This document shows, in pieces, positions 742 through 27,798 of a stretch of 64,000 nucleotides of DNA. The notes beneath the pieces were generated by a model, which was given only the letters and a program-made list of their open reading frames with translations, was not told the origin of the DNA and ran no database searches. Positions within the stretch are counted from its first letter, which is position 1. Each line of letters opens with the position of its first letter. The translations under genes were made by a program, and so were the position numbers. Source of the stretch: Rhodovulum kholense (GTDB lineage Bacteria > Pseudomonadota > Alphaproteobacteria > Rhodobacterales > Rhodobacteraceae); assembly GCF_003053725.1 (NCBI RefSeq), contig NZ_QAYC01000004.1:62001-126000 (forward strand). Direction: 5' to 3'.

Positions 742-1707
742 TCAAAGCCCGAAGATCTCGGCGAATTTCGCGCGGACCGCCGCGTCGGTCCGGACCGCCT
801 CGTCGGCATTCAGCGGCAAAAGCGTCATCGAGGCGAGATCGGGGAACCCCTTGGGCCCCGCGACGCCCGGCAGGATCGGCAGGTTGCCCTGTTTCGCCAC
901 CAGTTCTTGGCCCTCTTCGGACAGCAGGAAATCGACGAAGGTCTTCGCGGCCTCGGGCTGGTCGGTGGTCGACAGGATCGCCACCGGTTCGGTGATGACC
1001 GAGACGCCATCCTTCGGCACGATATAGTCGATGGGCGAGCCGTCGGCCTTGGCGCGCAGCGCGTTCGCATCGACCAGGATCGCGTATTTCGCCATCCCCG
1101 AGGCCACCGCCTTGGTCGCCGGGCCGTTGCCGCCCTCGGGAACGATGTCCAGATCGTTGAGGCCCTCGTAGAAGGCCCAGCCAATCCCGGGGGCGTCGAT
1201 CAGCGTGTGCAGATGGCAAAGTGCGGCCCCCGAATACAGCGGGCTCGGCACCGCGATCTGGCCGCGGTTTTCCTCTTTCAGCAGATCGGCCCAGGTCTCG
1301 ACCGGCTCGGCGATCTCGGTGTTCCAGGCGATGCCGGTGGTGATCGCCTTGGTGCCGAAGAAGGTCATGTCGGGGTCGTACATGGTCGCGTCATAGGCCG
1401 CGACCGGAGCATCGGTGTAGGGCAGCAGGTGACCGCCCGCCTTCAGTTCGCCCAGGTTGATGACATCGGCCACCAGCAGCACGTCGGGCTGGACCTGACC
1501 GGCCTCGATTTCCGCGCGCAGCACGTTCATCAGCGCCGAGGTGCCGTTGCGGGTCCATTCGACCTTGATGTCGGGATGCGCGGCCTCGAAGGCATCGACG
1601 GTTTCCTGCGCCTGTTCGGGCGCCTGGCTGGTGTAAAGCGTGATCGTGGTTTCGGCCGAGGCGGCGGTCGCCATCAGACCGGCGGTGGCAAGGGCAAGAA
1701 GACGCAT
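742..1707 (-). CDS. Iron-type ABC transporter periplasmic substrate-binding protein
   Basis: Periplasmic solute-binding protein of 321 residues. The ATG at 1705-1707 gives a clean Sec signal peptide (MRLLALATAGLMATAASA, cleavage before ETTIT); the open frame continues upstream, but that part overlaps the ATPase gene and looks spurious. The mature N-terminus (ITLYTSQAPEQAQETVDAFE) and the LYSG, IAWNTE and KDGV segments fit the type-2 periplasmic binding fold of the FutA/AfuA/FbpA iron group. It sits between the ATPase and the permease with 2-4 bp spacing, the usual order for this importer class. Related families bind 2-aminoethylphosphonate or polyamines, so ferric iron is the most likely but unproven ligand. 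Confidence 0.85.
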   Translation of the reverse strand: MRLLALATAGLMATAASAETTITLYTSQAPEQAQETVDAFEAAHPDIKVEWTRNGTSALMNVLRAEIEAGQVQPDVLLVADVINLGELKAGGHLLPYTDAPVAAYDATMYDPDMTFFGTKAITTGIAWNTEIAEPVETWADLLKEENRGQIAVPSPLYSGAALCHLHTLIDAPGIGWAFYEGLNDLDIVPEGGNGPATKAVASGMAKYAILVDANALRAKADGSPIDYIVPKDGVSVITEPVAILSTTDQPEAAKTFVDFLLSEEGQELVAKQGNLPILPGVAGPKGFPDLASMTLLPLNADEAVRTDAAVRAKFAEIFGL

Positions 1708-1709
1708 CG

Positions 1710-2804
1710 TTACAGTCCTTGAGTGGGGAGGGAGGAGAGAGAGGGATCGGGAAGCACCCAGCCGTCGGTCAGCGCGACGGTCACGCGCTGGCCCCGCTCG
1801 ATCCGGGCGGGGGCGGCGACGTTGAGGCACAGCGAGACGCCGCCATCGGGCCCCGCCGCCAGTTCGGCGCGCAGGTGATGGCCGCGAAAGGTGGCGCGGG
1901 TGACGGTGGCGGGGACGCCCTCGCCCTCGGTCAGACGCAGATCTCCGGGATGAAGCGCGATCCGGGCGCGCGGCCGGGGCCGTTCGCCGGGATCGCAGCG
2001 CAGACGCACCGGCGCGCCCAGCAGCCGCGCCTCGGCCCGGCCATCGCCCAGGGGCGCAAGGTCGGTCACCTCGACCACCCGGCCGTCGCCGATGAAGCCC
2101 GCGACCATGGCGCAGGCCGGTTCGCGAAACAGCCGCTCGGGCGGGGCGAATTGCACGATCCGGCCCGCCTCCATCACCGCGACGCGGTCGGCCAGCGCCA
2201 GCGCCTCGGCCTGATCGTGGGTGACATAGACCATCGTCGCGCCGGAGCGGCGGTGGAAATCGGCGAATTCAGCTTCCAGCGTGTCGCGCAGATGCACGTC
2301 GAGATTGGCCAGCGGCTCGTCCAGCAGCACGACGCGGGCCTCCATCGCCAGACAGCGCGCCAGCGCGACCCGCTGACGTTGCCCGCCCGACAGATCGGCG
2401 GGCCGCCGCGCGGCCATCTCGCCCAGTCCGACCGTTTCCAGCACCGCCCGGGTGCGCGCCTCGCGCGGGGCCCGGCCCATGCCGCCGACCTTCAGCCCAT
2501 AGGACACGTTGCCCGCCACGCTCATATGCGGCCAGAGCGCATAGGTCTGGAACACCACGCCGACGCCCCGGCCTTCGGGCGGCAGATGCACACCCGGCCC
2601 CGAAACCAGCCGCCCGCCCATCCGGATGCTGCCCGCATCCGGCCGCTCGAATCCGGCCAGCAGCCGCAGCAACGTCGTCTTGCCGCAGCCCGAGGGACCG
2701 AGGATCGCCACGAATTCGCCCGCCCCGACCGCCAGGGACACCCCGCCCAGAACTTCGGTCCGGCCGAAGGACTTGCCGAGGTTCTGGATGTCGATGGCAC
2801 TCAT
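1710..2804 (-). CDS. Iron-type ABC transporter ATP-binding protein
   Basis: ATPase subunit of the importer, 364 residues, acting at the cytoplasmic face of the inner membrane. Starting at MSAIDIQNLGKSFG it shows Walker A (GPSGCGKTT, residues 36-44), a Q-loop (VVFQTYALWPHMSV), the LSGGQRQRVALARC signature, Walker B (VVLLDEPLANLD) and the switch histidine (YVTHDQAEALALADR). The last ~130 residues form a TOBE-type domain, as in FbpC/PotA/CysA ATPases. The open frame continues far upstream, but homology begins at this ATG (2802-2804). It is the first gene of the minus-strand operon and is divergent from the radical SAM operon. Confidence 0.9.
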   Translation of the reverse strand: MSAIDIQNLGKSFGRTEVLGGVSLAVGAGEFVAILGPSGCGKTTLLRLLAGFERPDAGSIRMGGRLVSGPGVHLPPEGRGVGVVFQTYALWPHMSVAGNVSYGLKVGGMGRAPREARTRAVLETVGLGEMAARRPADLSGGQRQRVALARCLAMEARVVLLDEPLANLDVHLRDTLEAEFADFHRRSGATMVYVTHDQAEALALADRVAVMEAGRIVQFAPPERLFREPACAMVAGFIGDGRVVEVTDLAPLGDGRAEARLLGAPVRLRCDPGERPRPRARIALHPGDLRLTEGEGVPATVTRATFRGHHLRAELAAGPDGGVSLCLNVAAPARIERGQRVTVALTDGWVLPDPSLSSLPTQGL

Positions 2805-3032
2805 CACGGGCTCCGGACGCGGGATTGCACAGCATTGCAACCACGCGCCCTTCCTGCCGCCCGAATGAAACGGTTTTGTGTATCCGCCCTGACAGACCGA
2901 TGAAATCTGCCCGGATCGGCCGCCGCGCCTGCAACCGCGCGTTGCGAATTGCAGTTTGCGAACGCCTTCGCGCCCCATTAAGATCGCACTCGAATACCGG
3001 GCACAAAACGTGCCGGGCTGAAGGAAACAGCC
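2805..3032. promoter_or_regulatory. Divergent intergenic region with TTGCGAA direct repeats
   Basis: This 228 bp gap lies between the divergent iron-transporter operon and the radical SAM operon, so it should hold both promoters. It contains two TTGCGAA repeats at 2942-2948 and 2956-2962, 14 bp apart, close to one helical turn and a half. An A+T-richer patch lies around 2865-2885. No known operator can be named with confidence. A purine-rich AAGGAAAC sequence precedes the TTG start at 3033. Confidence 0.4.
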
Positions 3033-4562
3033 TTGCGGATCTACCTGATCGCCCCCGCCCCGGACGATGCGTCCGACACCACTGCCGAGATCAGCATGGC
3101 TGGCGTCAAGACGCCCTACACGCTGTCGGCCGCTGCCGGGATCGTGTCGGTGGCAGCCCTCCTGCCGCAGGAGGCCCGGATCCGGCTGTGCGACGAGGTC
3201 GTGCAGGAGGTCGATCTGGAGGCCGAGGCCGATCTGGTGGGGCTGTCGATCAATGTCTCGCAGGTCGCGCGCGGGCTCGAACTGGCCGCCGCCTTCCGCC
3301 GCCGCGGCATTCCGGTGGTGCTGGGCGGAGCGCATGTGTCGCTGGCGCCCGAGCTTTTCCGCGGCAAGGCAGATGCCATCGTGATCGGCGAGTTCGAGAC
3401 CGCCGCGCCGCGCTTTGCCGCCGATCTGAAGGCGGGCGGATTGCAGCCCGAATACCGCTGCGGCCAGGCCGACATGGCCGACACGCCGCTGCCGCGCTGG
3501 GATCTTTACCCCAATGACCGGGCGATTTCGGGCGTGGTGCAGACCTCGCGCGGCTGCCCGTTCGATTGCACCTTCTGCGACGTCATCCAGTATGTCGGCC
3601 GCAAGCAGCGTCACAAGCCGCCCGAACGCGTGCTGGCCGAGCTGCGGCAGCTTTACGATCTGGGCTATCGCGAAATCTCGCTGAGCGACGACAATTTCAC
3701 CGTCTACCGCCAGCGGACCCGCGCGCTTCTTGAGGCGCTGATCGCCTGGAACGGGACCGACGGGCGCGACCCGGTGCGGTTCTCGACCCAGATCTCGATC
3801 GACGCGGCGCGCGATCCGGACCTTCTCGCGATGTGCAACCGGGCCGGGCTGCGCCAGGTCTTCGTCGGGATCGAGACCGGCAACCCCGAATCGCTGGCCG
3901 AGGCCAACAAGCGGCAGAACCTCAGGATCGACCTCGGCGACGCCTGCCGGACGGTGGTCGGGGCGGGCCTGACGATCCGGGCCGGGCTGATCGTCGGCTT
4001 CGACCATGACGGGCTCGACTGTTTCGAGCGGCAGTTCGCCTTTGCCCAGAGCCTGCCCATCGTGGGCTTCAATGTCAGCGCGCTGGTCGCGCCCTACGCC
4101 ACGCCGCTTTATGCCGAGATGAAACGCGCGGGCCGGATCGTCGATGAAGACACCCACCGGCTGGCGGCAGGCACCCGGATGACCAACCTGATCCCCGCCC
4201 GGATGACCCGCGAACAGCTGACCGAGGGGCGCGACTGGCTGAAGGCCGCGCTGCTGGCCCCCGACGCCGCGATGGCGCGGTTCGAAAACTATGCCCGCAC
4301 GCTTGGCAGCCCCTGCCAGGACATGAGCCGGTCCGCCTGGGCTAAGGCCTCGGCGCGCCGCCATCCGCTGCACGAGCTGGTGCCGCTGATGATGAAGGAC
4401 AAGGGCGCGCGCCGGGTGATCGAGGGCGTGCGCGACCTGATCGCCGCGCGCCCCGAGATCGGCTATGACCTGACCTCGATCCTGACCCTGCACCTGTCGG
4501 AATGCGCCCGCGCGGCGGGGCACCGGCCGAGGATCGGCCGGCAACTCGAGGCCGTTCCATGA
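3033..4562 (+). CDS. B12-binding-domain radical SAM protein
   Basis: Cytoplasmic radical SAM enzyme of 509 residues. An N-terminal cobalamin-binding-like Rossmann region (residues ~1-140, with VVLGGAHVSLAPELF and IVIGEFE) precedes a radical SAM core with CPFDCTFC, giving the [4Fe-4S] ligands Cys175, Cys179 and Cys182. The C-terminus (NLIPARMTREQLTEG) resembles the DUF4070 tail of the HpnJ/HpnR-like class B group. The chosen TTG start (3033) has AAGGAAAC just upstream; internal starts would cut the B12 fold. The stop overlaps the next start as ATGA. Substrate unknown; the context suggests methylation or rearrangement of a lipid or acyl intermediate. Confidence 0.85.
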   Translation: MRIYLIAPAPDDASDTTAEISMAGVKTPYTLSAAAGIVSVAALLPQEARIRLCDEVVQEVDLEAEADLVGLSINVSQVARGLELAAAFRRRGIPVVLGGAHVSLAPELFRGKADAIVIGEFETAAPRFAADLKAGGLQPEYRCGQADMADTPLPRWDLYPNDRAISGVVQTSRGCPFDCTFCDVIQYVGRKQRHKPPERVLAELRQLYDLGYREISLSDDNFTVYRQRTRALLEALIAWNGTDGRDPVRFSTQISIDAARDPDLLAMCNRAGLRQVFVGIETGNPESLAEANKRQNLRIDLGDACRTVVGAGLTIRAGLIVGFDHDGLDCFERQFAFAQSLPIVGFNVSALVAPYATPLYAEMKRAGRIVDEDTHRLAAGTRMTNLIPARMTREQLTEGRDWLKAALLAPDAAMARFENYARTLGSPCQDMSRSAWAKASARRHPLHELVPLMMKDKGARRVIEGVRDLIAARPEIGYDLTSILTLHLSECARAAGHRPRIGRQLEAVP

Positions 4563-6268
4563 CCGGCGCCGCCGGAAATTCCCCCGAAACCGGTCTGGCC
4601 CGGGCGCTGGTCCGGACCTTTGCCGACCGCCCCGGGCGCGAACGGATCGTGATCCGGTCCCGGCAGGGCGCGCGCGATGTCTTCACCGGGGACCGGCTTG
4701 CCGCCGAGGCCGGGGCGGTCGCCGCCGCGCTCAGGGGCTGGCTGGGGCCGGGGGCGCACAGTCTGGTGCTGGCGCTGCCCGCCGGGGCCGAGTTCGTCGT
4801 GACCCTTCTGGGCGGGCTTCTGGCCGGCGTGACCCTGGTGCCCGTGCCCGTGCCGCGCCCGGGCAGCCATTCCGACCGCTTCCGCCATATCGCCGCCGAC
4901 AGCAGGGCCGCCGCCGTGCTATGCCCGCCCGCCCATGCCGAGGCGGTCGCGGCCGCGCTGGCGCTGGACGGGACGCCGCCCTGCCCGGTCGCGACCCTGC
5001 CGCTCGACCCCGCCCGGCTGCCCGACCCGGTGCGGCCCGCCGCCGCGCCGGATCTGCCGGTGGCGGTGATCCAGTATACCTCGGGCTCAACCCGGCTGCC
5101 GCGCGGGGTGCGGGTGACCCCGGACAACATCCTGGCCAATGCCGCGCTGGTCGCCCGCTGCTGGGGCATGGACGAGCAGGCCCGGTTCGTGAACTGGCTG
5201 CCGCACTATCACGACATGGGGCTGATGGGGGGCATCCTCTATCCGCTGCTCTGTGGCGGGTTCTCGGCGCAGATGTCGCCTCTGGACTTCATCCGCCGCC
5301 CCGCCCTGTGGCTCGAGGCCATCGCAGCCGAGCGCGCCGGTTTCAGCGGCGGACCGGCCTTCGCCTTCGCCGACTGCCTGCGCCGGATCTCGCCCGACGC
5401 CGCCGCCGCGCTGGACCTGACCTGCTGGCGCCGCGCCTTCATCGGGGCCGAGCCCGTGCCCGCCGGGCTGCCCGCGGCCTTCCACGCCCATTTCGCCGCC
5501 GCCGGGCTGGCCCACGAGGCGGTCTTTGCCTGCTACGGCATGGCCGAGATGACCCTCTTCGCGGCCGGGCTGCCGGGCGCCGACCGCCCGCCGCCCGCGC
5601 CCCCCGCCGCGCGGGCCGTGGCGCCCTGCCGCCTGACGCCCGAACTTGGCGCGGGCCTCGCCATCGTCGACCCCATCGCCCGGACCCGCCGCCCGGAGGG
5701 TGCCGAGGGCGAAATCTGGCTGCGCGGCCCGTCCCTGGGCGCGGGCTATCTGGGCCTGCCCGGCGACACCGCCGAAACCTTCGGCGCGGCGCTGGACGAC
5801 CCGTCCGACGGCTCGGGCTGGCTCCGCACCGGCGATCTGGGCGTGATCGCGGAGGATGCGCTTTATGTGACCGGGCGGATCAAGGATGTGGTCTTCTGCA
5901 ATGGCCGCACCCTCGCAGCACCGGAAATCGAGTGGCTGGCCTGCGGCAGCTCGGACGTCCTGAACCCGATGGCCGCCGCGGTCTTCATGCCCGACCCGGC
6001 CCGGGGCGGGCAGGCGGTGCTGCTTGCCGAACTGCGCCTCGGCGAGACCCCGCCCGACCCCGACACGCTGCGCCAGACGATCCGGCGGGCCGTGACCGGG
6101 GAATGGGGGCTCGATCTGGTCGAGATCCTGTTCCTGCCGCGCGGACGGCTGCCACGCACCAGCAGCGGCAAGATCCGCCGCCGCGCCGCGGCCGAGCTGT
6201 GGCGGGACGGCGCCTGGCCCCCCGAGACTGTCCCATCCGTGAAGGAAATGCCCGAATGCCCGTCGTGA
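4559..6268 (+). CDS. Fatty acyl-AMP ligase (AMP-dependent synthetase)
   Basis: Adenylate-forming enzyme of 569 residues, expected to activate a fatty acid as acyl-AMP and pass it to an acyl carrier protein. Seen motifs: the P-loop-like TSGSTRLPRGVRVTP, the FVNWLPHYHDMGLMGG block typical of FAAL and related ligases, FACYGMAEMTLFAAG, and the LRTGDLGVI and TGRIKDVVFCNGR hinge region. The catalytic lysine region near the C-terminus reads PRTSSGKIRRR. The ATG at 4559-4561 overlaps the upstream stop. The next-but-one gene is a carrier protein, which supports ACP rather than CoA as acceptor. The FAAL-specific insertion cannot be confirmed by eye, so a CoA ligase role is not excluded. Confidence 0.86.
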   Translation: MTGAAGNSPETGLARALVRTFADRPGRERIVIRSRQGARDVFTGDRLAAEAGAVAAALRGWLGPGAHSLVLALPAGAEFVVTLLGGLLAGVTLVPVPVPRPGSHSDRFRHIAADSRAAAVLCPPAHAEAVAAALALDGTPPCPVATLPLDPARLPDPVRPAAAPDLPVAVIQYTSGSTRLPRGVRVTPDNILANAALVARCWGMDEQARFVNWLPHYHDMGLMGGILYPLLCGGFSAQMSPLDFIRRPALWLEAIAAERAGFSGGPAFAFADCLRRISPDAAAALDLTCWRRAFIGAEPVPAGLPAAFHAHFAAAGLAHEAVFACYGMAEMTLFAAGLPGADRPPPAPPAARAVAPCRLTPELGAGLAIVDPIARTRRPEGAEGEIWLRGPSLGAGYLGLPGDTAETFGAALDDPSDGSGWLRTGDLGVIAEDALYVTGRIKDVVFCNGRTLAAPEIEWLACGSSDVLNPMAAAVFMPDPARGGQAVLLAELRLGETPPDPDTLRQTIRRAVTGEWGLDLVEILFLPRGRLPRTSSGKIRRRAAAELWRDGAWPPETVPSVKEMPECPS

Positions 6269-8445
6269 ACAGTTCTGCCTGGGACACCCCCGACCGGTTC
6301 GTGACCGACCCCGATGACGTCGCCGCGCTGTTGCGCGACCCGCGCTTTACCGTGGGCCAGCTGGCCACCCATCTGGACCAGATCGCGGCACGCGGCGGGC
6401 CGCGCTTTCCGCATCTGACCGAGATGGCGCGCCACGCCTTCGCCTTCCAGACGGGCGAGGCCCATCTGGCAGCGCGCCGCGCCACCGCCGCCTTCTTCGC
6501 GGCCCCCGCCCTGACCGCCTGGGCACCGGTCGCCGACCGCGCCTTCGCTAGTGCCCTCGACCGGCTGGAGGCCGCCGAGGCGCCCGACGTCATGCGCGAC
6601 TATTGCGAGGCGGCGTTTCTCGACTTCGTCCGCGCCTTCGCCGGGTGTCCGGGCGGCGACGACGAGCGGGTGCTGGAGCTGATCCGGCTGGCCAACAACA
6701 CCACCCAGCCGATGCTGTCGCTGAAGACGCTGGGCCGGATCGACGCCGCGCTGGGCGAATTGCTGGGCTATCTTTCGACCGATCCGATGCCGGGGGTCGA
6801 CCCTTCTCTCGAAGGCTTCCCCGCCTTTCTTGCACGCCGCAAGGACCGGCTGTCCGATCCCGCGGCCGCGCCCTATATCGCGCTGTCCGCGCTGGTCGGC
6901 AGCCACACCGTCGCCCAGTCGCTGGCGCTGGCGCTGTACGGCCTGCTGCTGGGCGATGCCGAGCACTGGCGCGCCGCGGCCGAACCGGGCTGGACCGACA
7001 CCGCGCTCGACCGGGTGATGTCGCTGTACCCCTCGACGCTGACCCTGGTCAGGATGGCCGAGGACGAGGTCAACCTCGGCGGCTGTCCGTTCCACAAGGG
7101 CGAGGCTGCGGTGATGGACGTGGTCGCAGCCAATGCCGAACTGCGCCGCCGGGTCCCCGACGGATCGGCCCATCTGTCCTTCGGCGCGGGGCCGCATAAA
7201 TGCCCCGGCGCGCCGCTTTCGCAGCTTTTCCTCGGCCGGGCGATCCCGGCGCTGGCGCGGCGCTTCCCGCAGCTTGCGCTGCATCGGGACGGCGTGCGGT
7301 TCCACGTGACGCCGCTGGTGCAGTATCCCGTGGCACTGCCGGTGACGCGTGACGCGCAGTCGCGGCGGCTGACCGGGCGGATGGTCGAGATCCGCGATCT
7401 GGACGAGGCCCGCGCCATCGTCAACGACGACGAGACCTGGTCGCCGCCCCGGATGGAGCCCTATCTGACCGCCCTGGCAGACCGCAGCGGCCGCGACTTC
7501 GGGCCGGCCCGACTGGTGGCCCGGAACGCGATGTTCTTCATGTCGGGCGAACGCCATGCCGCGATCCGCCGCGCGGTGGCCGACAGCCTCGGCGGCAACC
7601 GGCTGGCGCGCTGGCAACCGCTGATCGAGGCCGAGACCCAGGCCGCGCTGGCCCGGCTGGCCGCGGCCCCCGAACCCGACCTGATCGCCGATTATGCCGA
7701 TCCGATCTTTCGCGGCATCGCCGGGCCGGTCCTTGGCATTGCCCCGGCCGATCCCGAACGGTTCGACGTGCTCGCGCCGATCCTGCAGGACGTGCTGGAA
7801 CCCTGGCTGCCGATCCGCGAACTCGACCGGCTGCAGGCGGTGATCGCCGAGATCCTCGACGGGCTGCGCCCGCCCGCGACCGACGGCCTGCCCGGCACGC
7901 CGCTCTTGACCCGGCTGATGGACGAGGACCTGCCCGACACCGACGAGACCGACATCAAGGCGCTGGTGCTGGTGATGTATGGCGCAAGTTTCAACATGGC
8001 CCATACGCTGGGCAACATCCTGCACCATCTGCTGACCCTGCCGCCCGAAGACCGCAAGGGCGCCGCCGATCCGGCCTGGATCGATGCCGAGCTTGAACGC
8101 CTGATCTCGCTCTGCGCCTCGCCCAAATACATCTATCGCATGGCCCGCGGCCCGGCCCGGATCGGCGAGATCGAAATCCGGCCGGACGAGACGCTGCGGC
8201 TGCAACTGCTGTCGATCGACCGGGGCGTCGGCACCGGCAATCTGGCCTTCGGCCACGGGCTGCACCGCTGCGTTGGCGCGGCGCTGTCCAAGCGGATGCT
8301 GCGGACCGCCCTGCCCGCGCTTTTCGCGCGCTTTCCGGGGCTTGCGCTCAAGCCCCAGCGCCATCGCTATTTCGAGATGACCCAGACCGTGGCACTGGCA
8401 ACGCTGCCTTGCCGGCTGGGCTCCACAGGAAAGGACCGACCGTGA
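6256..8445 (+). CDS. Tandem-fused cytochrome P450 (two P450 domains in one polypeptide)
   Basis: A 729-residue protein made of two consecutive bacterial-size P450 domains (about 1-355 and 365-729). Each has a heme loop: FGAGPHKCPGAPLS with Cys316 and FGHGLHRCVGAALS with Cys672. Aligning back from the conserved Arg before the beta-2 strand (VRMAEDEV; YRMARGPA), the K-helix ExxR is replaced in both domains: R253-V-M-S256 and R615-L-I-S618. The I-helix AGx(D/E)T reads G-S-H217-T218 in domain 1 and G-A-S578-F579 in domain 2. There is no fused reductase. The ATG at 6256 overlaps the ligase gene by 13 bp, and the stop overlaps the ACP start. Likely role: oxidation of an ACP-bound chain, or one or both domains repurposed. 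Confidence 0.86.
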   Translation: MPVVNSSAWDTPDRFVTDPDDVAALLRDPRFTVGQLATHLDQIAARGGPRFPHLTEMARHAFAFQTGEAHLAARRATAAFFAAPALTAWAPVADRAFASALDRLEAAEAPDVMRDYCEAAFLDFVRAFAGCPGGDDERVLELIRLANNTTQPMLSLKTLGRIDAALGELLGYLSTDPMPGVDPSLEGFPAFLARRKDRLSDPAAAPYIALSALVGSHTVAQSLALALYGLLLGDAEHWRAAAEPGWTDTALDRVMSLYPSTLTLVRMAEDEVNLGGCPFHKGEAAVMDVVAANAELRRRVPDGSAHLSFGAGPHKCPGAPLSQLFLGRAIPALARRFPQLALHRDGVRFHVTPLVQYPVALPVTRDAQSRRLTGRMVEIRDLDEARAIVNDDETWSPPRMEPYLTALADRSGRDFGPARLVARNAMFFMSGERHAAIRRAVADSLGGNRLARWQPLIEAETQAALARLAAAPEPDLIADYADPIFRGIAGPVLGIAPADPERFDVLAPILQDVLEPWLPIRELDRLQAVIAEILDGLRPPATDGLPGTPLLTRLMDEDLPDTDETDIKALVLVMYGASFNMAHTLGNILHHLLTLPPEDRKGAADPAWIDAELERLISLCASPKYIYRMARGPARIGEIEIRPDETLRLQLLSIDRGVGTGNLAFGHGLHRCVGAALSKRMLRTALPALFARFPGLALKPQRHRYFEMTQTVALATLPCRLGSTGKDRP

Positions 8446-8705
8446 CCAGAACCCTGACGCCCCCCGCCCCGGAAGTCGTCGACTTCCTGACCGCCGGCAT
8501 CGCCCGCTTTACCAAGCAGGACCCGGCCGCGATCCGCCCGGATTCGGTGCTGGTCGATCTGGGGCTGCAATCCATCGACGCGGTGCTTCTGTCGGGCGAG
8601 GTCGAGGATCATTTCCAGATCGAGCTCGATCCCGCCACGATCTTCTCGCACGAAACGGTCGGCAGTTTCGCCTCGGACATCACCAAGCGCCTCGGGGCGC
8701 GATGA
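8442..8705 (+). CDS. Acyl carrier protein
   Basis: Small carrier protein of 87 residues. The GTG at 8442 overlaps the P450 stop (GTGA) and has AGGAAAGGA just upstream. The 4'-phosphopantetheine site is DLGLQSID, with Ser44 as the attachment residue; Gln replaces the more usual Asp before Ser. Helix-like flanks (VVDFLTAGIARFTKQ; VLLSGEVEDHFQIEL) fit the four-helix ACP fold. It lies between the P450 fusion and the carbamoyltransferase, so it probably carries the substrate for both and is loaded by the upstream ligase. Confidence 0.9.
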   Translation: MTRTLTPPAPEVVDFLTAGIARFTKQDPAAIRPDSVLVDLGLQSIDAVLLSGEVEDHFQIELDPATIFSHETVGSFASDITKRLGAR

Positions 8706-10387
8706 CGACCTGGTATCTGGGCCTCTCGACCTCGGGCCACGATCCGGCGCTGGCGCTTGTCGACGAGACCGGGCGCGTGGTCTTCGCCGAGGCGACCGAG
8801 CGCTTCTTGCAGGACAAGCGCGCCTGGGGCGTGGTACCCGACCATGTGCCGCATCTGGCGGCGGCGCTGGCGGCCGTGGGCGCCGCGCCGGGCGACCGGA
8901 TCGTTCCCGCCACCAGCTGGGCCTCGGTCAAGGCCGATCTGGGGCTCAAGGTGCATGACGCGCTGCTGCCCGCCTCGGACACGATCTGGATGCAGGGATT
9001 GCAGGCGCAGATGCAGCAAAACGCGGGTGCCTCGCTTCTGCGGCTGGGCCTTGCCCGCGAGCGGCCCGAGCCCATGCGGTTCGATCATCACCTCTGCCAT
9101 GCCGTCGCCGCCTGCCATTTCGCACCGGTCGCGGACGCCGTCTGTCTGGTGATCGACGGCGAGGGCGATGTCGGTGCGGTGTCGCATTTCCGGCTGACCG
9201 ACCGGCGGCTGTCACGCGGCTGGCGGTCCTGGGGGCCGGGCAGCCTGGGCACTTTCTATGGCTGGCTCACCGGGCTGTGCGGCTTCGACTGGCGCGAGGG
9301 CGAAGAGTGGAAGGTGATGGGCCTTGCCGCCTGCGGCCGCGCCGATCCGGCGCTGGTCGAGACCCTGACCGGACTGCTGTCGGCCGATCGCGGGCGGTTG
9401 CGCTTTGCCGACGACGCCGCCATCGCGGCAATCCGCGCCGCGGTCGAGCCGCTGGCCCGCCGCCCGGACGCGCCGGTGACCGACGCGGCCGATCTGGCGG
9501 CAGCCGGGCAGGCTGCCTATGCGCGTCTGGCCGATCAGGTGCTTGAGGCCATCGCCGAAGACGGCCCGACGCTGATCCTGTCGGGCGGCTGCGCGCTGAA
9601 CTCGTCCTACAACGGCACCATCGCGGGCCGGACCGGGTTCGAGAGGGTTTTCGTGCCGCCCTGCCCGGCCGATGACGGCAATGCCATCGGCGCGGCCCTT
9701 CTGGCCTGGATGGCCGATACCGGGGCCGAGCGCATCGCCTTCGGCGGCGGCACGCCCTTCCTCGGATCGGCGCCCCGTGCGAAGACGCTGGAGGCCGCCC
9801 GCCGCGCCGCCGCCGCGGGCCACGCGGTGACCGATGTCGCCGGGCGGTCCGCCGAGGTAGTGGCCGGGCTCCTGGCACAGGGCCGCATCCTGGGCGTAAT
9901 GCGCGGCCGGGCCGAATTCGGGCCGCGCGCGCTGGGCAACCGATCCATCCTGGCCGATCCGAGGCCCGCGGGCATGAAGGACGCGATCAATGCGCGGGTG
10001 AAGGGGCGCGAGCCCTACCGGCCCTTCGCCCCGGTTCTGGCCGAGGCCGATCTGGCCGACTGGTTCGACCGCCCGCAACCCTCGCCCTACATGTCGATGA
10101 CGCTGCCCTGGCGGGCCGGGGTCCGCGACCGGGTGCCCGCTGTCGTCCATGACGACGGCACCGGGCGGGTGCAGACGGTCGGCCCCGACAGCGCGCCGTG
10201 GATGGCCGATCTGGTCGCGGCCTTCGGGCGCGAGACCGGCGTGCCGGTGGTGCTGAACACCAGCTTCAACATCATGGGCAAGCCGATCCTGCATTCGGTC
10301 GAGGATGCACTGGGGATGCTGGCGACGACCGGGCTCGACGCGGTGCTGATCGAGGATGTCCTGATCGAGAAGCCCGCGCACCCCTGA
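8702..10387 (+). CDS. Carbamoyltransferase, NodU/CmcH family
   Basis: O-carbamoyltransferase of 561 residues, expected to transfer a carbamoyl group from carbamoyl phosphate (via carbamoyl-AMP) to a hydroxyl of the product. The N-terminal Kae1-like ASKHA domain shows YLGLSTSGHDPALALV and the metal-binding HHLCHA motif near residue 128. The C-terminal domain has MRGRAEFGPRALGNRSI and NTSFNIMGKPIL, both hallmarks of the TobZ/NodU family. The start overlaps the ACP stop as ATGA. It is the last gene of the operon and ends 12 bp before the convergent FkbM-type gene. This family acts on sugars, polyketides and lipids; the acceptor here is inferred to be the ACP-derived acyl product. Confidence 0.9.
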   Translation: MTTWYLGLSTSGHDPALALVDETGRVVFAEATERFLQDKRAWGVVPDHVPHLAAALAAVGAAPGDRIVPATSWASVKADLGLKVHDALLPASDTIWMQGLQAQMQQNAGASLLRLGLARERPEPMRFDHHLCHAVAACHFAPVADAVCLVIDGEGDVGAVSHFRLTDRRLSRGWRSWGPGSLGTFYGWLTGLCGFDWREGEEWKVMGLAACGRADPALVETLTGLLSADRGRLRFADDAAIAAIRAAVEPLARRPDAPVTDAADLAAAGQAAYARLADQVLEAIAEDGPTLILSGGCALNSSYNGTIAGRTGFERVFVPPCPADDGNAIGAALLAWMADTGAERIAFGGGTPFLGSAPRAKTLEAARRAAAAGHAVTDVAGRSAEVVAGLLAQGRILGVMRGRAEFGPRALGNRSILADPRPAGMKDAINARVKGREPYRPFAPVLAEADLADWFDRPQPSPYMSMTLPWRAGVRDRVPAVVHDDGTGRVQTVGPDSAPWMADLVAAFGRETGVPVVLNTSFNIMGKPILHSVEDALGMLATTGLDAVLIEDVLIEKPAHP

Positions 10388-10399
10388 GCGGGGGCCCCC

Positions 10400-11092
10400 T
10401 CAGTGCCGCACCGCCACGATCAATCCGTCGGGCTGGTGCGCGGGCGCCGGGTCGCTGTGCACCACCTGCCAGTGCTGACCCATGAGTGCGCAGCACTCGG
10501 CGAAGAGATCGTCGCCATGGGTGCCGACGATCCAGCGCCGCACCCTCTCGGCCTGCCCGGCCTCGACGATCCGGCGCAACAGCGCCAGTTCGGCGCCCTG
10601 CACGTCGAGCTTGGCCAGATCGACCGGCCGGGCCTCGGCCGCGATCAGCGCCGCGATGTCGTGGGCCGCAACCCGCAAGCCCCCTTCGTCCGCCACATGG
10701 GACGAGAAATCGGCCGCCTCGAAGCAGACGTCGCCCTCGGCGACATGGGCGGCCGCCTCGATCAGCCGCACCCGGTCGGGCGCGATGCCGTTCAGCGCCA
10801 GATTCTCGCGGATCGCGGCGACATGCTCGGGCAGCGGCTCGAAGGCCACCGCCTCGGCGCCGGGCCGCTCATGCAGCAACAGCAATGTGTAATATCCGAT
10901 GCCGCAGCCGATATCGTAGACCAGCGGATCGGCGGCCGGGATCTCGCCCAGAAGCGTCAGGAACCAGTGTTCCTCGACCGGCTCGTGCAGATTGCCCGCA
11001 TTCGCCTTGACGTAGCGGTTGACCTGATGATCGAGCACATGGTGCCGGTGGACCCGCACGCCATTGCCGAAGCGGTAGATGTCGTCCTGCAT
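10400..11092 (-). CDS. FkbM-family methyltransferase
   Basis: SAM-dependent methyltransferase of 230 residues. Motif I is YDIGCGIGYYTLLLL, followed by VAFEPLPEHVAAIRENLALNG and LAKLDVQGAELALL, the pattern of FkbM-type O-methyltransferases that act on sugars or polyketides. The frame is open upstream, but the family-like part begins at MQDDIYRFGNG (ATG 11090-11092), and the upstream part overlaps the next methyltransferase gene. It is the last gene of the large minus-strand glycan cluster, so methylation of a sugar hydroxyl is the likeliest role. Confidence 0.82.
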   Translation of the reverse strand: MQDDIYRFGNGVRVHRHHVLDHQVNRYVKANAGNLHEPVEEHWFLTLLGEIPAADPLVYDIGCGIGYYTLLLLHERPGAEAVAFEPLPEHVAAIRENLALNGIAPDRVRLIEAAAHVAEGDVCFEAADFSSHVADEGGLRVAAHDIAALIAAEARPVDLAKLDVQGAELALLRRIVEAGQAERVRRWIVGTHGDDLFAECCALMGQHWQVVHSDPAPAHQPDGLIVAVRH

Positions 11093-11127
11093 GCGGATCT
11101 TCCTCGCGGTTCGGGCCCGGTCCGGGG

Positions 11128-11757
11128 TCAGAGCGGCGGCAGCGAAAACGTCACGACCTCGGAATGCGGCCAGTGAAAGGCGTTGTAGATCGTGACGTTC
11201 TCTGCCCCCACTGCGTCGAGGAAAGTCTCGTCGAAGCTGTGCAGATGTGCCGGGATCCGGGTTTCGGGATTTTCCCGGAACGGGGTCGAGATCACCACAT
11301 GCTCGCGCGCCAGACGGCGCAGCTGCGTCAGGAAGGGTTCGGGTTCGGGCACATGCTCGATGCAATGCGAACAGATGACGATGTCCCATTGCCGGTCGTC
11401 GATCTCGAAGATGTCGGCGACGAGGTATTCCATCTCGGGGCGCAGGACATGCGAGATCCTGGCCATCGCCGGATCGATGTCGAGCGCGGTCACCGTGCAT
11501 TTCAGCCGCGCATAGCTCGCGGGGTTCAGCACCGTCGCAAGAAAGGCGCTGCCCGACCCGGTCCGCGCGCCGACATCGAGCACCGTCTTGGTGTGGTAGC
11601 GGGCGGGGTAAAGCCTTTCCAGAAGCGGTAGCAGCTCGGCCATGAAGGCGATGCTCTGCGGGTTCTGCTTCTTGCTGTAGAAGTCGTAATCGATGCCGGC
11701 TTCCGCAAACAGCCGCTCGAGCTCGGTTCTTTCAAGGGTCTCTTCCATGTCGGTCAT
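11128..11757 (-). CDS. Class I SAM-dependent methyltransferase
   Basis: Methyltransferase of 209 residues with a Rossmann core: TVLDVGARTGSGSAFL (motif I), TALDIDPAMARI (acidic motif II), and DIVICSHCIEHVPEPEPFL with the His typical of Methyltransf_11/23 members. I chose the ATG at 11755-11757 (MTDMEETLERTE) because GGAAAGGA lies 1-2 bases upstream at the expected Shine-Dalgarno distance; a start 10 codons earlier is possible. It sits between the FkbM-type methyltransferase and the AGE-family epimerase. The substrate is unknown, probably a glycan component. Confidence 0.8.
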   Translation of the reverse strand: MTDMEETLERTELERLFAEAGIDYDFYSKKQNPQSIAFMAELLPLLERLYPARYHTKTVLDVGARTGSGSAFLATVLNPASYARLKCTVTALDIDPAMARISHVLRPEMEYLVADIFEIDDRQWDIVICSHCIEHVPEPEPFLTQLRRLAREHVVISTPFRENPETRIPAHLHSFDETFLDAVGAENVTIYNAFHWPHSEVVTFSLPPL

Positions 11758-11835
11758 TTCCTTTCCAATGTCGGCCGGGCGCCACATCCGGGACGGGGCA
11801 TGCGGCCAGGCCCGTGATCTGGAATCTAGGCAGGG

Positions 11836-13014
11836 TCAGGCGGTCGATGGTGCGCGGGTCTCCTCCTTGGCGACGGGCCGCGAGCGGTGGGCCTCCAGCG
11901 CCGCCAGTTCGTGATAGGCCCCGACGATGTGATAAAGGCTGCTGGTGCGCGCCGGTTCGGATCGTGGCGCGCCGCCGGGGGCGAGGTTCTCCCACCAGCT
12001 GCCGCGCAGCGGATGCACGAAGAAGCGCATCAGCCCCTGGCAGGCCTCGACCGCCTTCGCCTCGGCAAGGGTCGCGTCGGCAGGCCCGGTCGCCAGCCGC
12101 GCCCGAAGCGCCCAGGCCTTGATCCGCTCGGTCTGCGGCCAGAGCCGGGCGGTCGCATCGTCGATGGCAAGCGCGGGTGTCAGGAGGCTGGCCGCCAGCC
12201 CGTCAGCAGTCAGGCCATGCGCCTCGGCAAGGTCGATCAGCCGCCGCCCCGCAGCCTGCGCCAGAGCATTGTCGCGAAGCACGCCCCAGCGCAGGAGCAG
12301 CCAGCCCCATTCGTACTGGTGGCCCGGTTCGACCGCGTTGCCGGGACCGGCCGCGATCCGCCAGTCGCTGTCGAAAAGCTCGCGCTGCGCGCCGGTCCCG
12401 GGGTCGATGAAGCGCGCCAGGCAAAGCTCGGCAATCTCGTCGGCAAGCGCCTGAAAGCGCGGATCGCAGGGGCCCGAGACGATCCATTCGAGACAGGCCT
12501 CCAGCAGATGCATATGGGGGTTTGCGCGCAGCGGCAGCCGACGCGGCCGGGCCTCCTCGAACCCCGCCTCGGGGTGGCGATATAGCACGTCGAGCCGGGT
12601 CAGGATCCGGTCTGCCAGCGTCTCGGCGCGGGCGCGCGGCAAGACCGCTTCCGGGGCGGCGGCCAGCGCAAAGAGGCAGAAGGCGACGTCGTAAAGGCTG
12701 AACGCGGAGCCTCCCCCGGCAATGGGCAGCACCGCGCCATCGGGAGCCAGATGTTCGGCCAGAAGGACATCGCGGGCGTGGTTGGCAAGAAGCTCGGGCC
12801 AGGCGCCGCCCAGACCCGCCCCCATCAGGCGGGAAAAGGCGAAAAGCTGGCGTGCGGCCACCATCGCCCGGCGTGGCAGATCGACCGGGTCGCCCTCCGG
12901 TGAAAGACGTTCGCAGAACCCCGCCTCGTCGCGCACCAGCGCGGCCTGGACCGGCAGAACCTCCACCTCCAGCCAGAGCCGGAAGGCAGCCGTCGTCTCG
13001 GACAGATCTGTCAT
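11836..13014 (-). CDS. AGE-family (N-acylglucosamine 2-epimerase / mannose isomerase-like) protein
   Basis: Predicted (alpha/alpha)6-barrel sugar epimerase or isomerase of 392 residues. Recognisable family segments are ANPHMHLLEACLEW, EPGHQYEWGWLLLRW and WPQTERIKAW, which carry the histidines, glutamates and arginines of the AGE active site. The ATG at 13012-13014 overlaps the upstream gene's stop (ATGA). It lies inside a heptose-nucleotide operon that has no gmhA-type sedoheptulose-7-phosphate isomerase in this window. It may interconvert a ketose and an aldose here, or isomerise mannose; the family assignment is solid, the substrate is not. Confidence 0.82.
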   Translation of the reverse strand: MTDLSETTAAFRLWLEVEVLPVQAALVRDEAGFCERLSPEGDPVDLPRRAMVAARQLFAFSRLMGAGLGGAWPELLANHARDVLLAEHLAPDGAVLPIAGGGSAFSLYDVAFCLFALAAAPEAVLPRARAETLADRILTRLDVLYRHPEAGFEEARPRRLPLRANPHMHLLEACLEWIVSGPCDPRFQALADEIAELCLARFIDPGTGAQRELFDSDWRIAAGPGNAVEPGHQYEWGWLLLRWGVLRDNALAQAAGRRLIDLAEAHGLTADGLAASLLTPALAIDDATARLWPQTERIKAWALRARLATGPADATLAEAKAVEACQGLMRFFVHPLRGSWWENLAPGGAPRSEPARTSSLYHIVGAYHELAALEAHRSRPVAKEETRAPSTA

Positions 13015-16299: not shown

Positions 16300-17072
16300 C
16301 GCGCTTTCCGGAACCACATCATGGTGCGTTTCATACCTGTGCCCGCAAGCACGCCGACCTCGAAACTGTCGACCTCCTGGCCCTCGGTGCAGCCGAATTC
16401 GGCGAACATGTAGCGGATCGTCTCGGGGCTCAGCGCCCAGAAATTGTTGTACCCCTTGGCGTGCCAGTTCATGAACTTGCAGTCGAACTTGTCGGCGCCC
16501 TCGTAGGTCGTCGTCTCCAGCAGCACCTCGCCGCCGGGCTTCAGCGACAGGCAGGTGTTGCGCACCGAACTCCAGACATCGGGCAGGTGATAAAGCAGGC
16601 CGCAATGCAGGATCACGTCATAGGTGGCGGGCGCCGAGAAGGTGTTGGCATCGGCGGTCCAGAAATTGCAGGGCGCGCCGCAGAATTCGGCGATGGCCGA
16701 CGTCCGTTTGACCGCAGCATCGTAGAACTCGATCCCGTCGACCTTGCAGCCCAGGTATTTCGACAGGAAGATCGAGTTGTAGCCCTCGTTGAACCCCAGA
16801 TCGAGCACGCGCTTTCCGGCCAGCCGGGACAGGTCGATCTTGGCGTGGAACCGCCGCAGCTTGGCCAGGCAGCGCGCATTGGGCACGTTCTCCGAGCGCT
16901 CGAAGCTTTCGGTCGTGACCCCGTTCGAGAAGCGGTAGACCGACCGCCAGGGCGCATGCAGGGCGCAGAAGGACTCGGTCTCTTCGACCGAGCGGTCCGT
17001 CTCGATATAGAGAACATCGTTCTTCAACCGTTCAGAGATCTCGTCGGCAAGGGTGTCGGCCAGGTCTGTCAT
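16296..17072 (-). CDS. SAM-dependent methyltransferase, CmoB/DUF1698-like
   Basis: Methyltransferase of 258 residues. Motif I is RVLDLGFNEGYNSIFLSKYL, then VDGIEFYDAAVKR and YDVILHCGLLYHLPDVWSSV, a signature shared by CmoB-like (DUF1698) and glycan-associated methyltransferases. I prefer the ATG at 17070-17072 (MTDLADTLADEIS) over an upstream TTG that would overlap the previous gene. The context (sulfotransferases on both sides) argues for a sugar methylation role rather than tRNA wobble modification. Confidence 0.75.
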   Translation of the reverse strand: MTDLADTLADEISERLKNDVLYIETDRSVEETESFCALHAPWRSVYRFSNGVTTESFERSENVPNARCLAKLRRFHAKIDLSRLAGKRVLDLGFNEGYNSIFLSKYLGCKVDGIEFYDAAVKRTSAIAEFCGAPCNFWTADANTFSAPATYDVILHCGLLYHLPDVWSSVRNTCLSLKPGGEVLLETTTYEGADKFDCKFMNWHAKGYNNFWALSPETIRYMFAEFGCTEGQEVDSFEVGVLAGTGMKRTMMWFRKAR

Positions 17073-18939: not shown

Positions 18940-18956
18940 GTTCCCAATCTCCCTAC

Positions 18957-25086: not shown

Positions 25087-25410
25087 CCTTCGTTCCCAGA
25101 CGGCAGACGTCGCACTCCCGTGCCCCCGTCCCTGCCACCCCCGGCACACCGGCCGCGGATAAACCAAATAGACTTCTGAAAAGCAGGGTGAACTGTCTGC
25201 ATTTTTACCATCTTCTTCAACTCTCGTACACCTTGATGTTCACAAGTTCAACCTCTAGGTGCCCACGCCCCAGGCCTTTGCGATCTTCCGCCATCTCATT
25301 GATGAAACAGGCTGAAACCCGACGCCTTCCGGTTCTGAAATCGGATATGGGCCAGGGTCGGCGCAACGGCGTCCGCCGCCATACGGGGCTTGCCAGGGTC
25401 GCTGCAACGC
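25087..25410. other. Divergent intergenic region, no gene seen
   Basis: About 320 bp separate the divergent glycosyltransferase and TPR/acyltransferase genes. It includes a stretch of lower GC content around 25160-25260 (with TTTTTACCATCTTCTTCAAC) that may hold the promoters. A short open frame on the minus strand (25217-25417) has no recognisable protein features and I do not call it. Confidence 0.4.
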
Positions 25411-27798
25411 ATGACATTATACCCGAAGGGCCAGTACGGCCCAGACGTGGAACAGACGAACAGGATGCAGAACGCAGACGCAGAGATCGCGACGACCGCC
25501 GCCGCCCGCGAGGCGTCCGGCCAGGCGCTGACCCGCCCGCCGCAGGATAGGGCGCTGCGGCTACGAGAGGGCGTTCTGCTGCGCGAGGCGGGCAGGATCG
25601 AGGAGAGCCTCGCCCATCTTCTCAGGCTTGCCGCCGACGCGCCCGGGGCCCCATGGGTCGCCATCGAACTGGCCGCGACCCAGCGGCGCGCCTGGGCCTA
25701 TGACGCGGCGGCCGAAACCCTTGCCGGGTTGCTTGCGACCGATCCCCGCCAGCGTCAGGCGCTTTTGGCCCGGATCGACGCGGCGGCGCAGGAGTTGCGT
25801 CTCGACCTGGCGCTCGAGGCGGTCGAGGCCGCGCTGGACGTGCTGCCCGGCGATGCGGGTCTTGCGCTGCGCCGCTGCAACCTGACCCTTCAGCGCGGCC
25901 ATGTGCGCGCGGCGCGGGACCTTCTGGACGCGCTGGCCGCCGACCGGCCCGACGATCCGGGCGTAGATCTGGCCCGCGGCCAGAGCTTGCTGGCCGAAGA
26001 CCCCGAAACCGCGCTGGCGCTAGCCGGGGACGTGGTGGCCCGCGCGCCCGGCCTCGTCTGGGCCTGGCCCCTGCGGATCGCTGCGGCGCGCACCCTGTGG
26101 CGGTTCGACGACGCCGAGGCGTGGGGCCGCGAGGCCGAAACCCGCTTTCCCGGTCAGGCGCCGGTGCTGCAAGCCCGCGTCGCCACCCGGATGGCCCTGG
26201 AGGACCCTCAGGGGGCGCTGGCGCTGCTGCCCATGGCCACCGACACCCCGGCAATCTGGATCCTGCGCGGCACGACGCTGCTGGCCTTGGGTCGCCCCGA
26301 AGAGGCCGATGCCGCCTTCGCCACAGCGCTGGACACCGGCGGGCTGCTGCCCGGGGCCGCCATCGGCCGGATCGGCGCCGCGCTCGAGCTGGACCGGGTC
26401 GACGAGACCCGCGCCGGGCTGAGCGCGCTGATTGCCTGGCACGAGGCCCGCGGACACCGGAACGGCGACCGCATCCGGGCCGAGATCGCCGGCAGGCTTG
26501 GCGACTGGCCCGAGGCCGAGCGGCTTTCGACCCGGCTTCTGGACCGGCAGGGCCCCGACAGGGCGCTGCTTTATCTGCAGGCGCGCGCCCGGTTCGGCCT
26601 TGGCCGGATCGAAGGCGCCGAGACCGCGCTGGACACGCTTGGCGCGCTCGACCCCGACCATTCCGCGAGTGCGGAGCTGCGGGGCGAGCTGCATCTCGCC
26701 GCCGGACGCCCGGACGCCTATGTCGCCCACCGCCGCGCCCTGTCCCTGCGCCCCGAAAGTGCCCGCGCCCGGACCGATATCGACTTCGGGCGCGATCTCG
26801 ATGCGCTGGGCCTGCACGACGAGGCCTCGGCGCGGCTGCAACACCTGCTGGACCGGAACGGCAGCGCGCCGAACCTTTTCCTGTCTCAGGCGCTGATGAC
26901 CCGGGGCCGGGTCGAGGAGGCAACCGCGATCCTGCCCCGCTTTGTGCGCGGACGGCGCAATATCGCCGGCGGGGCCGACGAGGCGATCACCCGCGCGGCG
27001 GACCTGGAGCGGCTTTTCGATTTCGAGACGGCCCGGCCGATCCCGACGATGAGCATCTCACCGGCCGCATCGCTGGCCTGGCGGATGGCCCGCGACCGCA
27101 GTCTTGGTCAGGCCGAATGGACGCGGCGGGCGGAACGCGCCAGTGCCATCCGGCGCTGGCTGACCGCCGCCCCGGCAGAGCCCGAGGCGCTGCTGCCCTG
27201 GCTGCATCCGGGCGAGGCCGACAAGCTGCGCGCCCTGCCCCGGCCCTGCATCGTGGCGACGACCCATTTCGGCCCGCTGGTCTATTCGGTCCTGAGCGGG
27301 CTGAATGTCGGCTATCACTACCTGGCCGCCCGGTCGGCGGCCAATCCGGCCGCACGCGGGCTCGGCCCGATGATCGCCGCCGCGACCGCCCCGCGCGAGG
27401 CGGCGGCCGAGGCCTTCCGCGTGCTGCGCGGCAACGGCATCCTGATGGCCACGCATGACTCTCCGGCGCGGGTGATGCGGCAAGGCGGCCCCGGCGATGT
27501 CGCGCGCGGGCGGCTTTTCGGACGGCCGTTCGAGCTGATCGACACCCTGCCCAAGCTGGCAGCCGGGCTGCGCGTGCCCAGCCTGACGCTGCAGGCGCAT
27601 TGGCGCGACGGGCGCATCGCCTTCGAGATCGCGCCGCTTCCCACGCCCGAGGATGGCGAGCCGACGCAGCTTTGGCTCGACCGCTGGGCGCAGGCCTATC
27701 TCGACCGGATCGAATGGATCATGAGCGGGCCGCCCGAGAACCAGAACCTCGACGCCTTGAACTGGCGCGTGCTGCTGCTGGACCCGCCGCCCGCCTGA
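25411..27798 (+). CDS. TPR-repeat protein with C-terminal lysophospholipid-acyltransferase-like domain
   Basis: A ~795-residue protein. Residues ~40-560 are built of degenerate tetratricopeptide repeats (for example GVLLREAGRIEESLAHLLRL; LLALGRPEEADAAFATAL; LGRIEGAETALDTL). The C-terminal ~240 residues resemble LpxL/HtrB-like acyltransferases: CIVATTHFGPLVYSVLSG corresponds to the HxxxxD/E-type core in altered form, and RVLRGNGILMATHDSP to the second block. The start is uncertain: ATG 25411 is used, TTG 25390 and ATG 25465 (preceded by AGG) are alternatives. It is divergent from the glycan cluster, so a role in acylating or assembling envelope glycolipid is plausible. Confidence 0.68.
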   Translation: MTLYPKGQYGPDVEQTNRMQNADAEIATTAAAREASGQALTRPPQDRALRLREGVLLREAGRIEESLAHLLRLAADAPGAPWVAIELAATQRRAWAYDAAAETLAGLLATDPRQRQALLARIDAAAQELRLDLALEAVEAALDVLPGDAGLALRRCNLTLQRGHVRAARDLLDALAADRPDDPGVDLARGQSLLAEDPETALALAGDVVARAPGLVWAWPLRIAAARTLWRFDDAEAWGREAETRFPGQAPVLQARVATRMALEDPQGALALLPMATDTPAIWILRGTTLLALGRPEEADAAFATALDTGGLLPGAAIGRIGAALELDRVDETRAGLSALIAWHEARGHRNGDRIRAEIAGRLGDWPEAERLSTRLLDRQGPDRALLYLQARARFGLGRIEGAETALDTLGALDPDHSASAELRGELHLAAGRPDAYVAHRRALSLRPESARARTDIDFGRDLDALGLHDEASARLQHLLDRNGSAPNLFLSQALMTRGRVEEATAILPRFVRGRRNIAGGADEAITRAADLERLFDFETARPIPTMSISPAASLAWRMARDRSLGQAEWTRRAERASAIRRWLTAAPAEPEALLPWLHPGEADKLRALPRPCIVATTHFGPLVYSVLSGLNVGYHYLAARSAANPAARGLGPMIAAATAPREAAAEAFRVLRGNGILMATHDSPARVMRQGGPGDVARGRLFGRPFELIDTLPKLAAGLRVPSLTLQAHWRDGRIAFEIAPLPTPEDGEPTQLWLDRWAQAYLDRIEWIMSGPPENQNLDALNWRVLLLDPPPA

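Follow-up and report, generated by a model that had tools for sequence, protein, structure and literature searches.

Which parts of the conserved P450 core can a gene give up and still be maintained? The ExxR motif of the K-helix serves as a checklist motif for calling functional cytochrome P450s, and surveys regard proteins that lack either signature motif as fragments or pseudo-P450s (PMC6408508, PMC4633277). The question is raised twice over by a single gene in a 64,000-nucleotide stretch of the Rhodovulum kholense genome (contig NZ_QAYC01000004.1; hereafter the window), which encodes two P450 domains fused in one protein, here called the twin P450, with ExxR missing from both halves.

The fused P450 halves and the loss of ExxR

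As the initial annotation had described, the frame at positions 6256-8445 runs uninterrupted through 729 residues to a stop and contains two heme loops, with Cys316 and Cys672. The protein and its parts are as follows:

6256..8445, plus strand: fused twin P450, 729 residues (open frame, 22-row alignment, AlphaFold model with pLDDT 89.8 and pTM 0.90)
within 6256..8445, plus strand: N-half, residues ~1-372, and C-half, residues ~373-729
6991..7026, plus strand: N-half K-helix (residues 246-257), R-V-M-S (253-256) replacing ExxR
7180..7209, plus strand: N-half heme loop FGAGPHKCPG with Cys316, preceded by a shortened meander
7978..7998, plus strand: C-half I-helix residues 575-581, of which YGASFN (575-580) is invariant
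8071..8115, plus strand: C-half K-helix (residues 606-620), R-L-I-S (615-618) replacing ExxR
8248..8277, plus strand: C-half heme loop FGHGLHRCVG with Cys672

At the places where ExxR is expected, R253 and S256 of the N-half and R615 and S618 of the C-half precede R266 and R628, respectively, by 13 and 10 residues, and in the AlphaFold model, built from the 22-row alignment, these places fall in helices (246-257 and 606-620) that are followed by strands (263-268 and 625-630). A displaced but intact motif was considered for the C-half, where E612-L-E-R615 sits three residues upstream; an orthologue with 85% identity (L003) has Gly in place of R615, and on that ground we rejected it for the window protein. 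Nor does the window protein have an Arg one residue past the expected ExxR Arg place in either half. A frameshift or a merger of two separate genes was rejected because other species carry the same fused frame.

ExxR is missing throughout the family. Two alignments were used, one of 22 intact proteins (excluding L054, L064 and L067; L033 and L044 did not enter it) and one of 27 rows that includes broken copies. Glu and Arg occurred together at the ExxR places in none of the 22 proteins in either half, and in none of 27 C-halves and 26 N-halves of the larger alignment (L067 is gapped there). The comparison set consisted of 29 distinct alphaproteobacterial frames of at least ~340 residues with a heme loop (from L004-L030, L041 and L042, excluding L010, L015 and repeats in L026), and all 29 kept ExxR 67-69 residues before the Cys, as did nine single-domain matches from searches of the class and phylum that entered a second tree (see below).

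The initial annotation had further proposed that both halves carry the same RxxS substitution, which did not hold up as a conserved motif. At the Glu place, the 22 N-halves read Arg (9), Gln (4), Glu (4), Lys (3), Leu (1) and Ala (1), and the C-halves Arg (8), Glu (5), Gln (3), Gly (2), Ala (2), Leu (1) and Asp (1); at the Arg place, the N-halves read Ser (12), Gly (5), Arg (3) and Leu (2), and the C-halves Ser (9), Ala (7), Pro (3), Gly (2) and Val (1). Arg without Glu is found in three Brevundimonas N-halves, and Glu without Arg in four N-halves and five C-halves. An E..R pair occurs near the K-helix in two C-halves and one N-half of the 22 proteins, and Arg follows one residue after its expected place in five C-halves (L055, L056, L057, L068 and L069) and two N-halves (L053 and L059), where a shifted salt bridge may be present. 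What the family has in common is the loss of ExxR together with a shorter meander: the spacing from the Arg place to the Cys is 54 residues in the window C-half, 52-56 across C-halves and 59-67 across N-halves (67 in one row only), compared with 67-69 in the 29 comparison P450s, and the missing residues are those of the meander.

The I-helix is also altered in both halves, as had been noted. In the C-half it reads GASFN in 22 of 22 rows, with acid and alcohol both replaced (YGASFN in 27 of 27); in the N-half, 21 of 22 rows have Thr or Ser where the alcohol belongs, and the acid place is occupied by H, N, I, S, Y or V. An ungapped alignment of the N-half with the C-half favours, over the register originally given to G-A-S-F, one in which Asn580 takes the catalytic-Thr place. 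The register could be off by one residue relative to the comparison P450s, against which hhalign put a one-residue gap in the C-half I-helix, so this placement of Asn580 is likely, not certain. Both halves keep the C-helix His-x3-Arg/Lys in all 22 aligned rows, as well as the heme-thiolate loop FxxGxHxCxG with Cys316 and Cys672; in the 27-row alignment the Cys is present in all 27 C-halves and in 25 N-halves. The halves are unlike in that the invariant stretches lie in the C-half.

The predicted model has a P450 fold. Foldseek placed P450BioI chains from complexes with acyl-acyl carrier protein (acyl-ACP) at ranks 1-9, and the top three VIA-align matches were P450BioI against the C-half (Z 36.5-36.8 over 347-351 residues, root-mean-square deviation 2.4-2.6), followed by PksS (Z 34.1). 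AurH matched residues 2-368 (Z 33.7), and its structures 3p3o and 3p3z were the only ones wholly inside the N-half among the 50 listed for the whole-model query; identities among the matches listed were 14-25%. P450BioI was also the best profile match (E 1.9e-35). The structural matches support the fold and hint at carrier-bound substrates. Against PF00067, the whole protein (33.6 bits) and the C-half (24.9 bits) scored above the gathering cutoff of 22.8; the N-half by itself matched no Pfam family at E 0.01. We conclude that fold and heme loops make this protein a P450, one from which three usual P450 features (ExxR, the full meander and the acid-alcohol pair) are absent.

Distribution, selection and origin

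A scan of 84,980 species genomes with two conserved peptides as queries, which relatives without those peptides would escape, returned 24 loci. By record titles all are from Alphaproteobacteria and include Rhodovulum visakhapatnamense, Phycocomes, Roseovarius, Stappia, Roseibium, Breoghania, Brevundimonas, Rhizobium, Methylorubrum and Aurantimonas. Adding the window, L033 and L044 gives 27 unique alphaproteobacterial loci (L032 and L043 were dropped as duplicates of L046 and L047), of which 24 are intact, L054 is frameshifted, and L064 and L067 have eroded N-halves; the intact relatives are 39-96% identical to the window protein. Two extra plasmid copies are annotated 'cytochrome P450' and 'hypothetical protein'. 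The family is patchy in its distribution. In the genus, 3 of 16 genomes carry a twin P450, the window's included (100, 96 and 85% identity). In the taxonomic family, 6 of 394 genomes matched at E <= 1e-14; besides the window's, two matches were intact fused proteins (53 and 42% identity), two were ordinary P450s (24 and 27%), and the last (G251, L040) was a fragment. It belongs to a broken copy of the cassette described below, in which pieces of both the twin P450 and the carbamoyltransferase remain. Among 385 genomes drawn from the class and 398 drawn from the phylum, no further fused member was found at E <= 1e-30, and half-length matches occurred in 21 and 3 other genomes, respectively.

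One explanation for the missing motif is that the gene is decaying. The whole-gene ratio of nonsynonymous to synonymous substitution rates (dN/dS) was 0.19 between the window and R. visakhapatnamense, 0.28 between the window and L003, and 0.29 between R. visakhapatnamense and L003, and because of these values in three same-genus comparisons we rejected pseudogene decay. We conclude that the gene is under purifying selection and that the absence of ExxR is neither a sequencing error nor decay.

In a midpoint-rooted tree of 14 N-halves, 14 C-halves and 29 other P450s, the N-halves (support 100/99) and the C-halves (99/98) each formed a clade and the two clades joined each other (100/100), as would be the pattern after one duplication that preceded the spread of the family. 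With the N and C clades standing apart from the 29 other P450s and the gene under purifying selection, the proposal of a duplicated, functionally distinct lineage was upheld. Tandem P450s in another genome (G040) were considered as unfused precursors and rejected, as both have ExxR and lie outside the clade.

A single-domain P450 from another class of the phylum (genome G855; L085) by hand count keeps the Glu and has Ile for Arg. In the second tree it joined the twin P450 group with 100/100 and fell weakly outside the two half clades (85/53), on a long branch. It sits (L089, 462-6034) between a P450 that by eye has ExxR and a TPR-acyltransferase, and the C-terminus of this TPR protein is 26% identical over 246 residues to the LPLAT module of the window (E 9.8e-15, small database). 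This relative hints that the Arg was lost, and the tie to an LPLAT-type acyltransferase formed, before the fusion. Upstream of the same P450, in L089, is a frame that by eye is radical-SAM-like.

The cassette and its delivery modules

The twin P450 is accompanied in the window by the following genes, with their occurrence over the 27 loci as counted by tblastn:

3033..4562, plus strand: B12-binding radical SAM protein, found close to the cassette at 18 of 27 loci
4502..6268, plus strand: fatty-acyl-AMP ligase (FAAL), likely start 4559 from an ATGA overlap in the sequence; 25 of 27 loci
8442..8705, plus strand: ACP, with a putative GTG start that overlaps the P450 stop; 27 of 27 loci
8702..10387, plus strand: O-carbamoyltransferase with Carbam_trans_N and Carbam_trans_C domains; 27 of 27 loci
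25390..27798, plus strand: TPR protein with an LPLAT-like acyltransferase C-terminus, a weak match to the VexE model

The window cassette is co-directional and tight, and its start and stop codons appear to overlap at the junctions, as judged from the nucleotide sequence with two putative starts. The ACP and carbamoyltransferase genes adjoin the twin P450 at every locus, and the same gene order is annotated in a plasmid record.

Exactly one of three presumed acyl-delivery module types was detected by tblastn in 24 of the 27 loci: an LPLAT type in 11 (weak in L054 and L067), an MBOAT with a partner protein in 7, and a Cys-thioesterase-like protein in 6 (weaker in L064 and L066). No locus had two types within the flanking DNA examined, which reached at most ~10 kb except in the window; a second module farther out would escape. 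No module was found in L033 and L046, where the DNA ends short of the window's module distance, or in L048, where the cassette lies near a contig end. Rhodobacter sp. NTK016B has two cassettes (L050 and L057) with different delivery modules.

The three types differ in how well they match known families. For the LPLAT domain of the window, LpxM and PatA made up all 14 matches at E <= 0.001, on a weak model (pLDDT 62), and the TPR-LPLAT protein scored 47.3 bits against the VexE model, whose cutoff is 1200. Its relatives lie within ~6 kb of the P450 in 10 other loci. The MBOAT is DltB-like (TIGR04091, E 8.1e-33, below cutoff); its partner gave no family match, and the SGNH reading of that protein was made by eye. 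In L069 (14167-19566) and L091 (plasmid CP049029, 13368-18567), two consecutive MBOAT-plus-partner pairs stand behind one cassette, and the second partner of the plasmid is annotated as an SGNH/GDSL hydrolase. The plasmid record labels the counterpart of the partner discussed here 'hypothetical', its 'MBOAT' and 'SGNH' labels belonging to the second pair. The thioesterase-like proteins have G-[NA]-C-Q-G in common, in which the Cys sits where Ser is usual, and one of them compared with the PDB gave weak matches only (best E 0.22). In L064 (4080-6245) such a protein, with the Cys nucleophile motif, appears by eye to be fused to a carrier-protein domain.

Between the carbamoyltransferase and TPR-LPLAT genes of the window, the minus strand (10400-25167) carries FkbM and other methyltransferases, HddA/HddC/GmhB-like heptose genes, sugar dehydratases and epimerases and a glycosyltransferase; a GlcNAc 2-epimerase-type protein is also encoded on the minus strand beyond the cassette. 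By gene content this resembles a surface-glycan locus. Two frames, at 15307-16605 and 17941-19533, are sulfotransferase-like by eye but matched nothing in Pfam at 1e-6. Immediately upstream of the cassette (745-2900, minus strand) are a solute-binding protein and an ABC ATPase, and farther downstream (28842-31301, minus strand) a large protein is by eye like a molybdopterin reductase of the DMSO/TMAO type.

Proposed function and relation to known systems

On balance we think it probable, if only just, that the twin P450 carries out the oxidation in a cassette for acyl modification, catalysis falling mainly to the C-half and the N-half either supporting it or performing a second oxidation. The analysis establishes the gene content, the synteny, the losses common to the family and, by prediction, the fold; from these we infer the substrate, the order of steps, the product, the division of labour and the destination as follows. 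The FAAL would activate an acyl acid and load it onto the dedicated ACP, and the twin P450 would oxidise the acyl chain while it is ACP-bound, chiefly through the C-half heme domain; the N-half would be a duplicated P450 whose heme loop has been lost in some lineages. The carbamoyltransferase would then carbamoylate the new hydroxyl, and an acyltransferase-type module (TPR-LPLAT in the window) would pass the product on to a glycan precursor or a lipid, possibly on the cell surface. The K-helix/meander lock would have been given up before or around the fusion, so that the heme would have to be held in another way.

The N-half has been eroded in frame, with its heme loop gone and the C-half intact, in L064 (Methylorubrum, 9695-11419) and L067 (Halovulum, 9815-11710); its heme loop is thus lost in 2 of 27 loci and that of the C-half in none. 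Relative to L003, dN was 0.138 in the N-half and 0.056 in the C-half, and dN/dS was 0.32 versus 0.21. The rate argument is nevertheless mixed because the difference is absent relative to R. visakhapatnamense, where dN/dS is 0.19 in both halves. This equality is one of several observations that weigh against the proposal. The N-half heme loop is retained in 25 of 27 rows, so the N-half may matter more than proposed; FAAL was not detected in L050 and L054; and the loci are related, which means that their synteny counts are not independent observations. By motif, no small ferredoxin-like gene was found beside 25 of 27 cassettes when frames of less than 160 residues were scanned, matches being confined to L065 (in another frame, over the carbamoyltransferase) and L055. 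The similarity to P450BioI is low (~20% identity) and would not by itself establish ACP use, and the window LPLAT gene lies ~19 kb from the P450, with a weak model.

The equal dN/dS of the halves relative to R. visakhapatnamense also speaks for an alternative in which each half is a complete P450 oxygenase in its own right, the fusion letting the two act in turn on one carrier-bound acyl chain (hydroxylating it twice, or hydroxylating and then cleaving it), as do the heme Cys and C-helix motif kept in both halves of all 22 proteins and the Thr or Ser of 21 of 22 N-halves. We consider this unlikely, as the N-half changes faster relative to L003 and lost its heme loop in L064 and L067 although the cassette was kept. 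Another alternative arises because Phe and Asn stand approximately at the acid-alcohol places of the C-half and no ferredoxin gene is nearby, namely that the C-half is a heme isomerase, dehydratase or peroxide-using enzyme and not a reductive oxygenase; CYP74 and the P450 domain of fungal Ppo proteins are examples of such enzymes. The YGASFN stretch invariant in all 27 C-halves and the 25 cassettes without a ferredoxin motif are consistent with it. However, bacterial P450s are often served by ferredoxins encoded elsewhere, and in P450cin the Thr place is occupied by Asn242. Since P450cin is an ordinary hydroxylase with this active-site Asn242 (PMC8398027), we regard a non-oxygenase C-half as quite improbable.

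A non-catalytic, P450-derived activator or scaffold, like the TIGR04515 glycosyltransferase activators, would account for TIGR04515 being the best NCBIfam match of the window protein (E 2.1e-23) and matching 22 of 22 members. Four other P450 models also match all members, TIGR04538 with a better best E; the score of 83.3 bits is below the cutoff of 343; and the heme Cys is kept in 27 of 27 C-halves and 25 N-halves, which makes this reading very improbable. Returning to the acyl-modification cassette, a more specific version is offered tentatively, as possible rather than probable: a duplicated pair that has lost ExxR and part of the meander, in which a catalytic C-half is permanently tethered to a partner P450 whose heme is becoming optional and which may help to dock the carrier protein or relay electrons, would make a carbamoyloxy-acyl group that interchangeable acyltransferases attach to surface glycans or lipids.

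A conserved family without ExxR in two fused halves and with a reduced meander is a natural test of the role of this lock and of heme retention, and the cassette points to a route by which environmental Alphaproteobacteria would oxidise and carbamoylate acyl groups, with delivery modules of three exchangeable types. A literature search turned up neither a comparable fused twin P450 nor a similar cassette, which is weak evidence of absence, subscription papers and preprints being outside its scope. The nearest solved structure to the model is P450BioI (CYP107H1); it has the P450 fold and was solved with acyl-ACP, but it is a single domain and shares ~20% identity with the twin P450.

CYP157 of Streptomyces is described as a natural P450 family without the K-helix Arg (EVLW or EQSLW; PMC3599690, PMC3990721); according to these papers it keeps the Glu, has Trp for Arg and is linked to conservons, whereas the twin P450 has two fused halves, mostly Ser, Ala or Gly for Arg, and a shorter meander. 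Trp at the Arg place was found in 0 of 22 rows, and by the K-helix motif alone (PMC3599690) the twin P450 is set apart from CYP157. Single oomycete P450s without the Arg of ExxR are also on record (PMC4486971). P450 fusions, as far as the accessible literature describes them, join a heme peroxidase or redox partners; the P450-heme peroxidase/dioxygenase fusions CYP5619 and CYP6001 (PMC4486971, PMC4633277) likewise have two heme domains in one protein, but just one of the two is a P450 and the proteins are eukaryotic. A CYP102A1 dimer is described as well. The TIGR04515 activators are alike as the best curated sequence-model match, but the window protein is far below their cutoff and has a heme Cys in both halves.

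For delivery, the closest precedent for the TPR-LPLAT module would by analogy be VexE of the Vi antigen system, described as acylating UDP-GlcNAc from beta-hydroxyacyl-ACP (PMC9597891). Likenesses are the TPR, a C-terminus of putative LPLAT type and ACP-dependent transfer to a sugar; they differ in that the window module is below the VexE model cutoff and that the available portion of the VexE report mentions no P450 or carbamoyltransferase (PMC9597891). In 7 of 27 loci the likeness is instead to the dlt operon (DltA-DltC-DltB-DltD), with an adenylating ligase, a carrier protein, a DltB-like MBOAT and a partner protein. The partner's relation to DltD was judged by eye alone, and the cassette differs from the operon in its FAAL-like ligase and in the addition of the twin P450 and the carbamoyltransferase.

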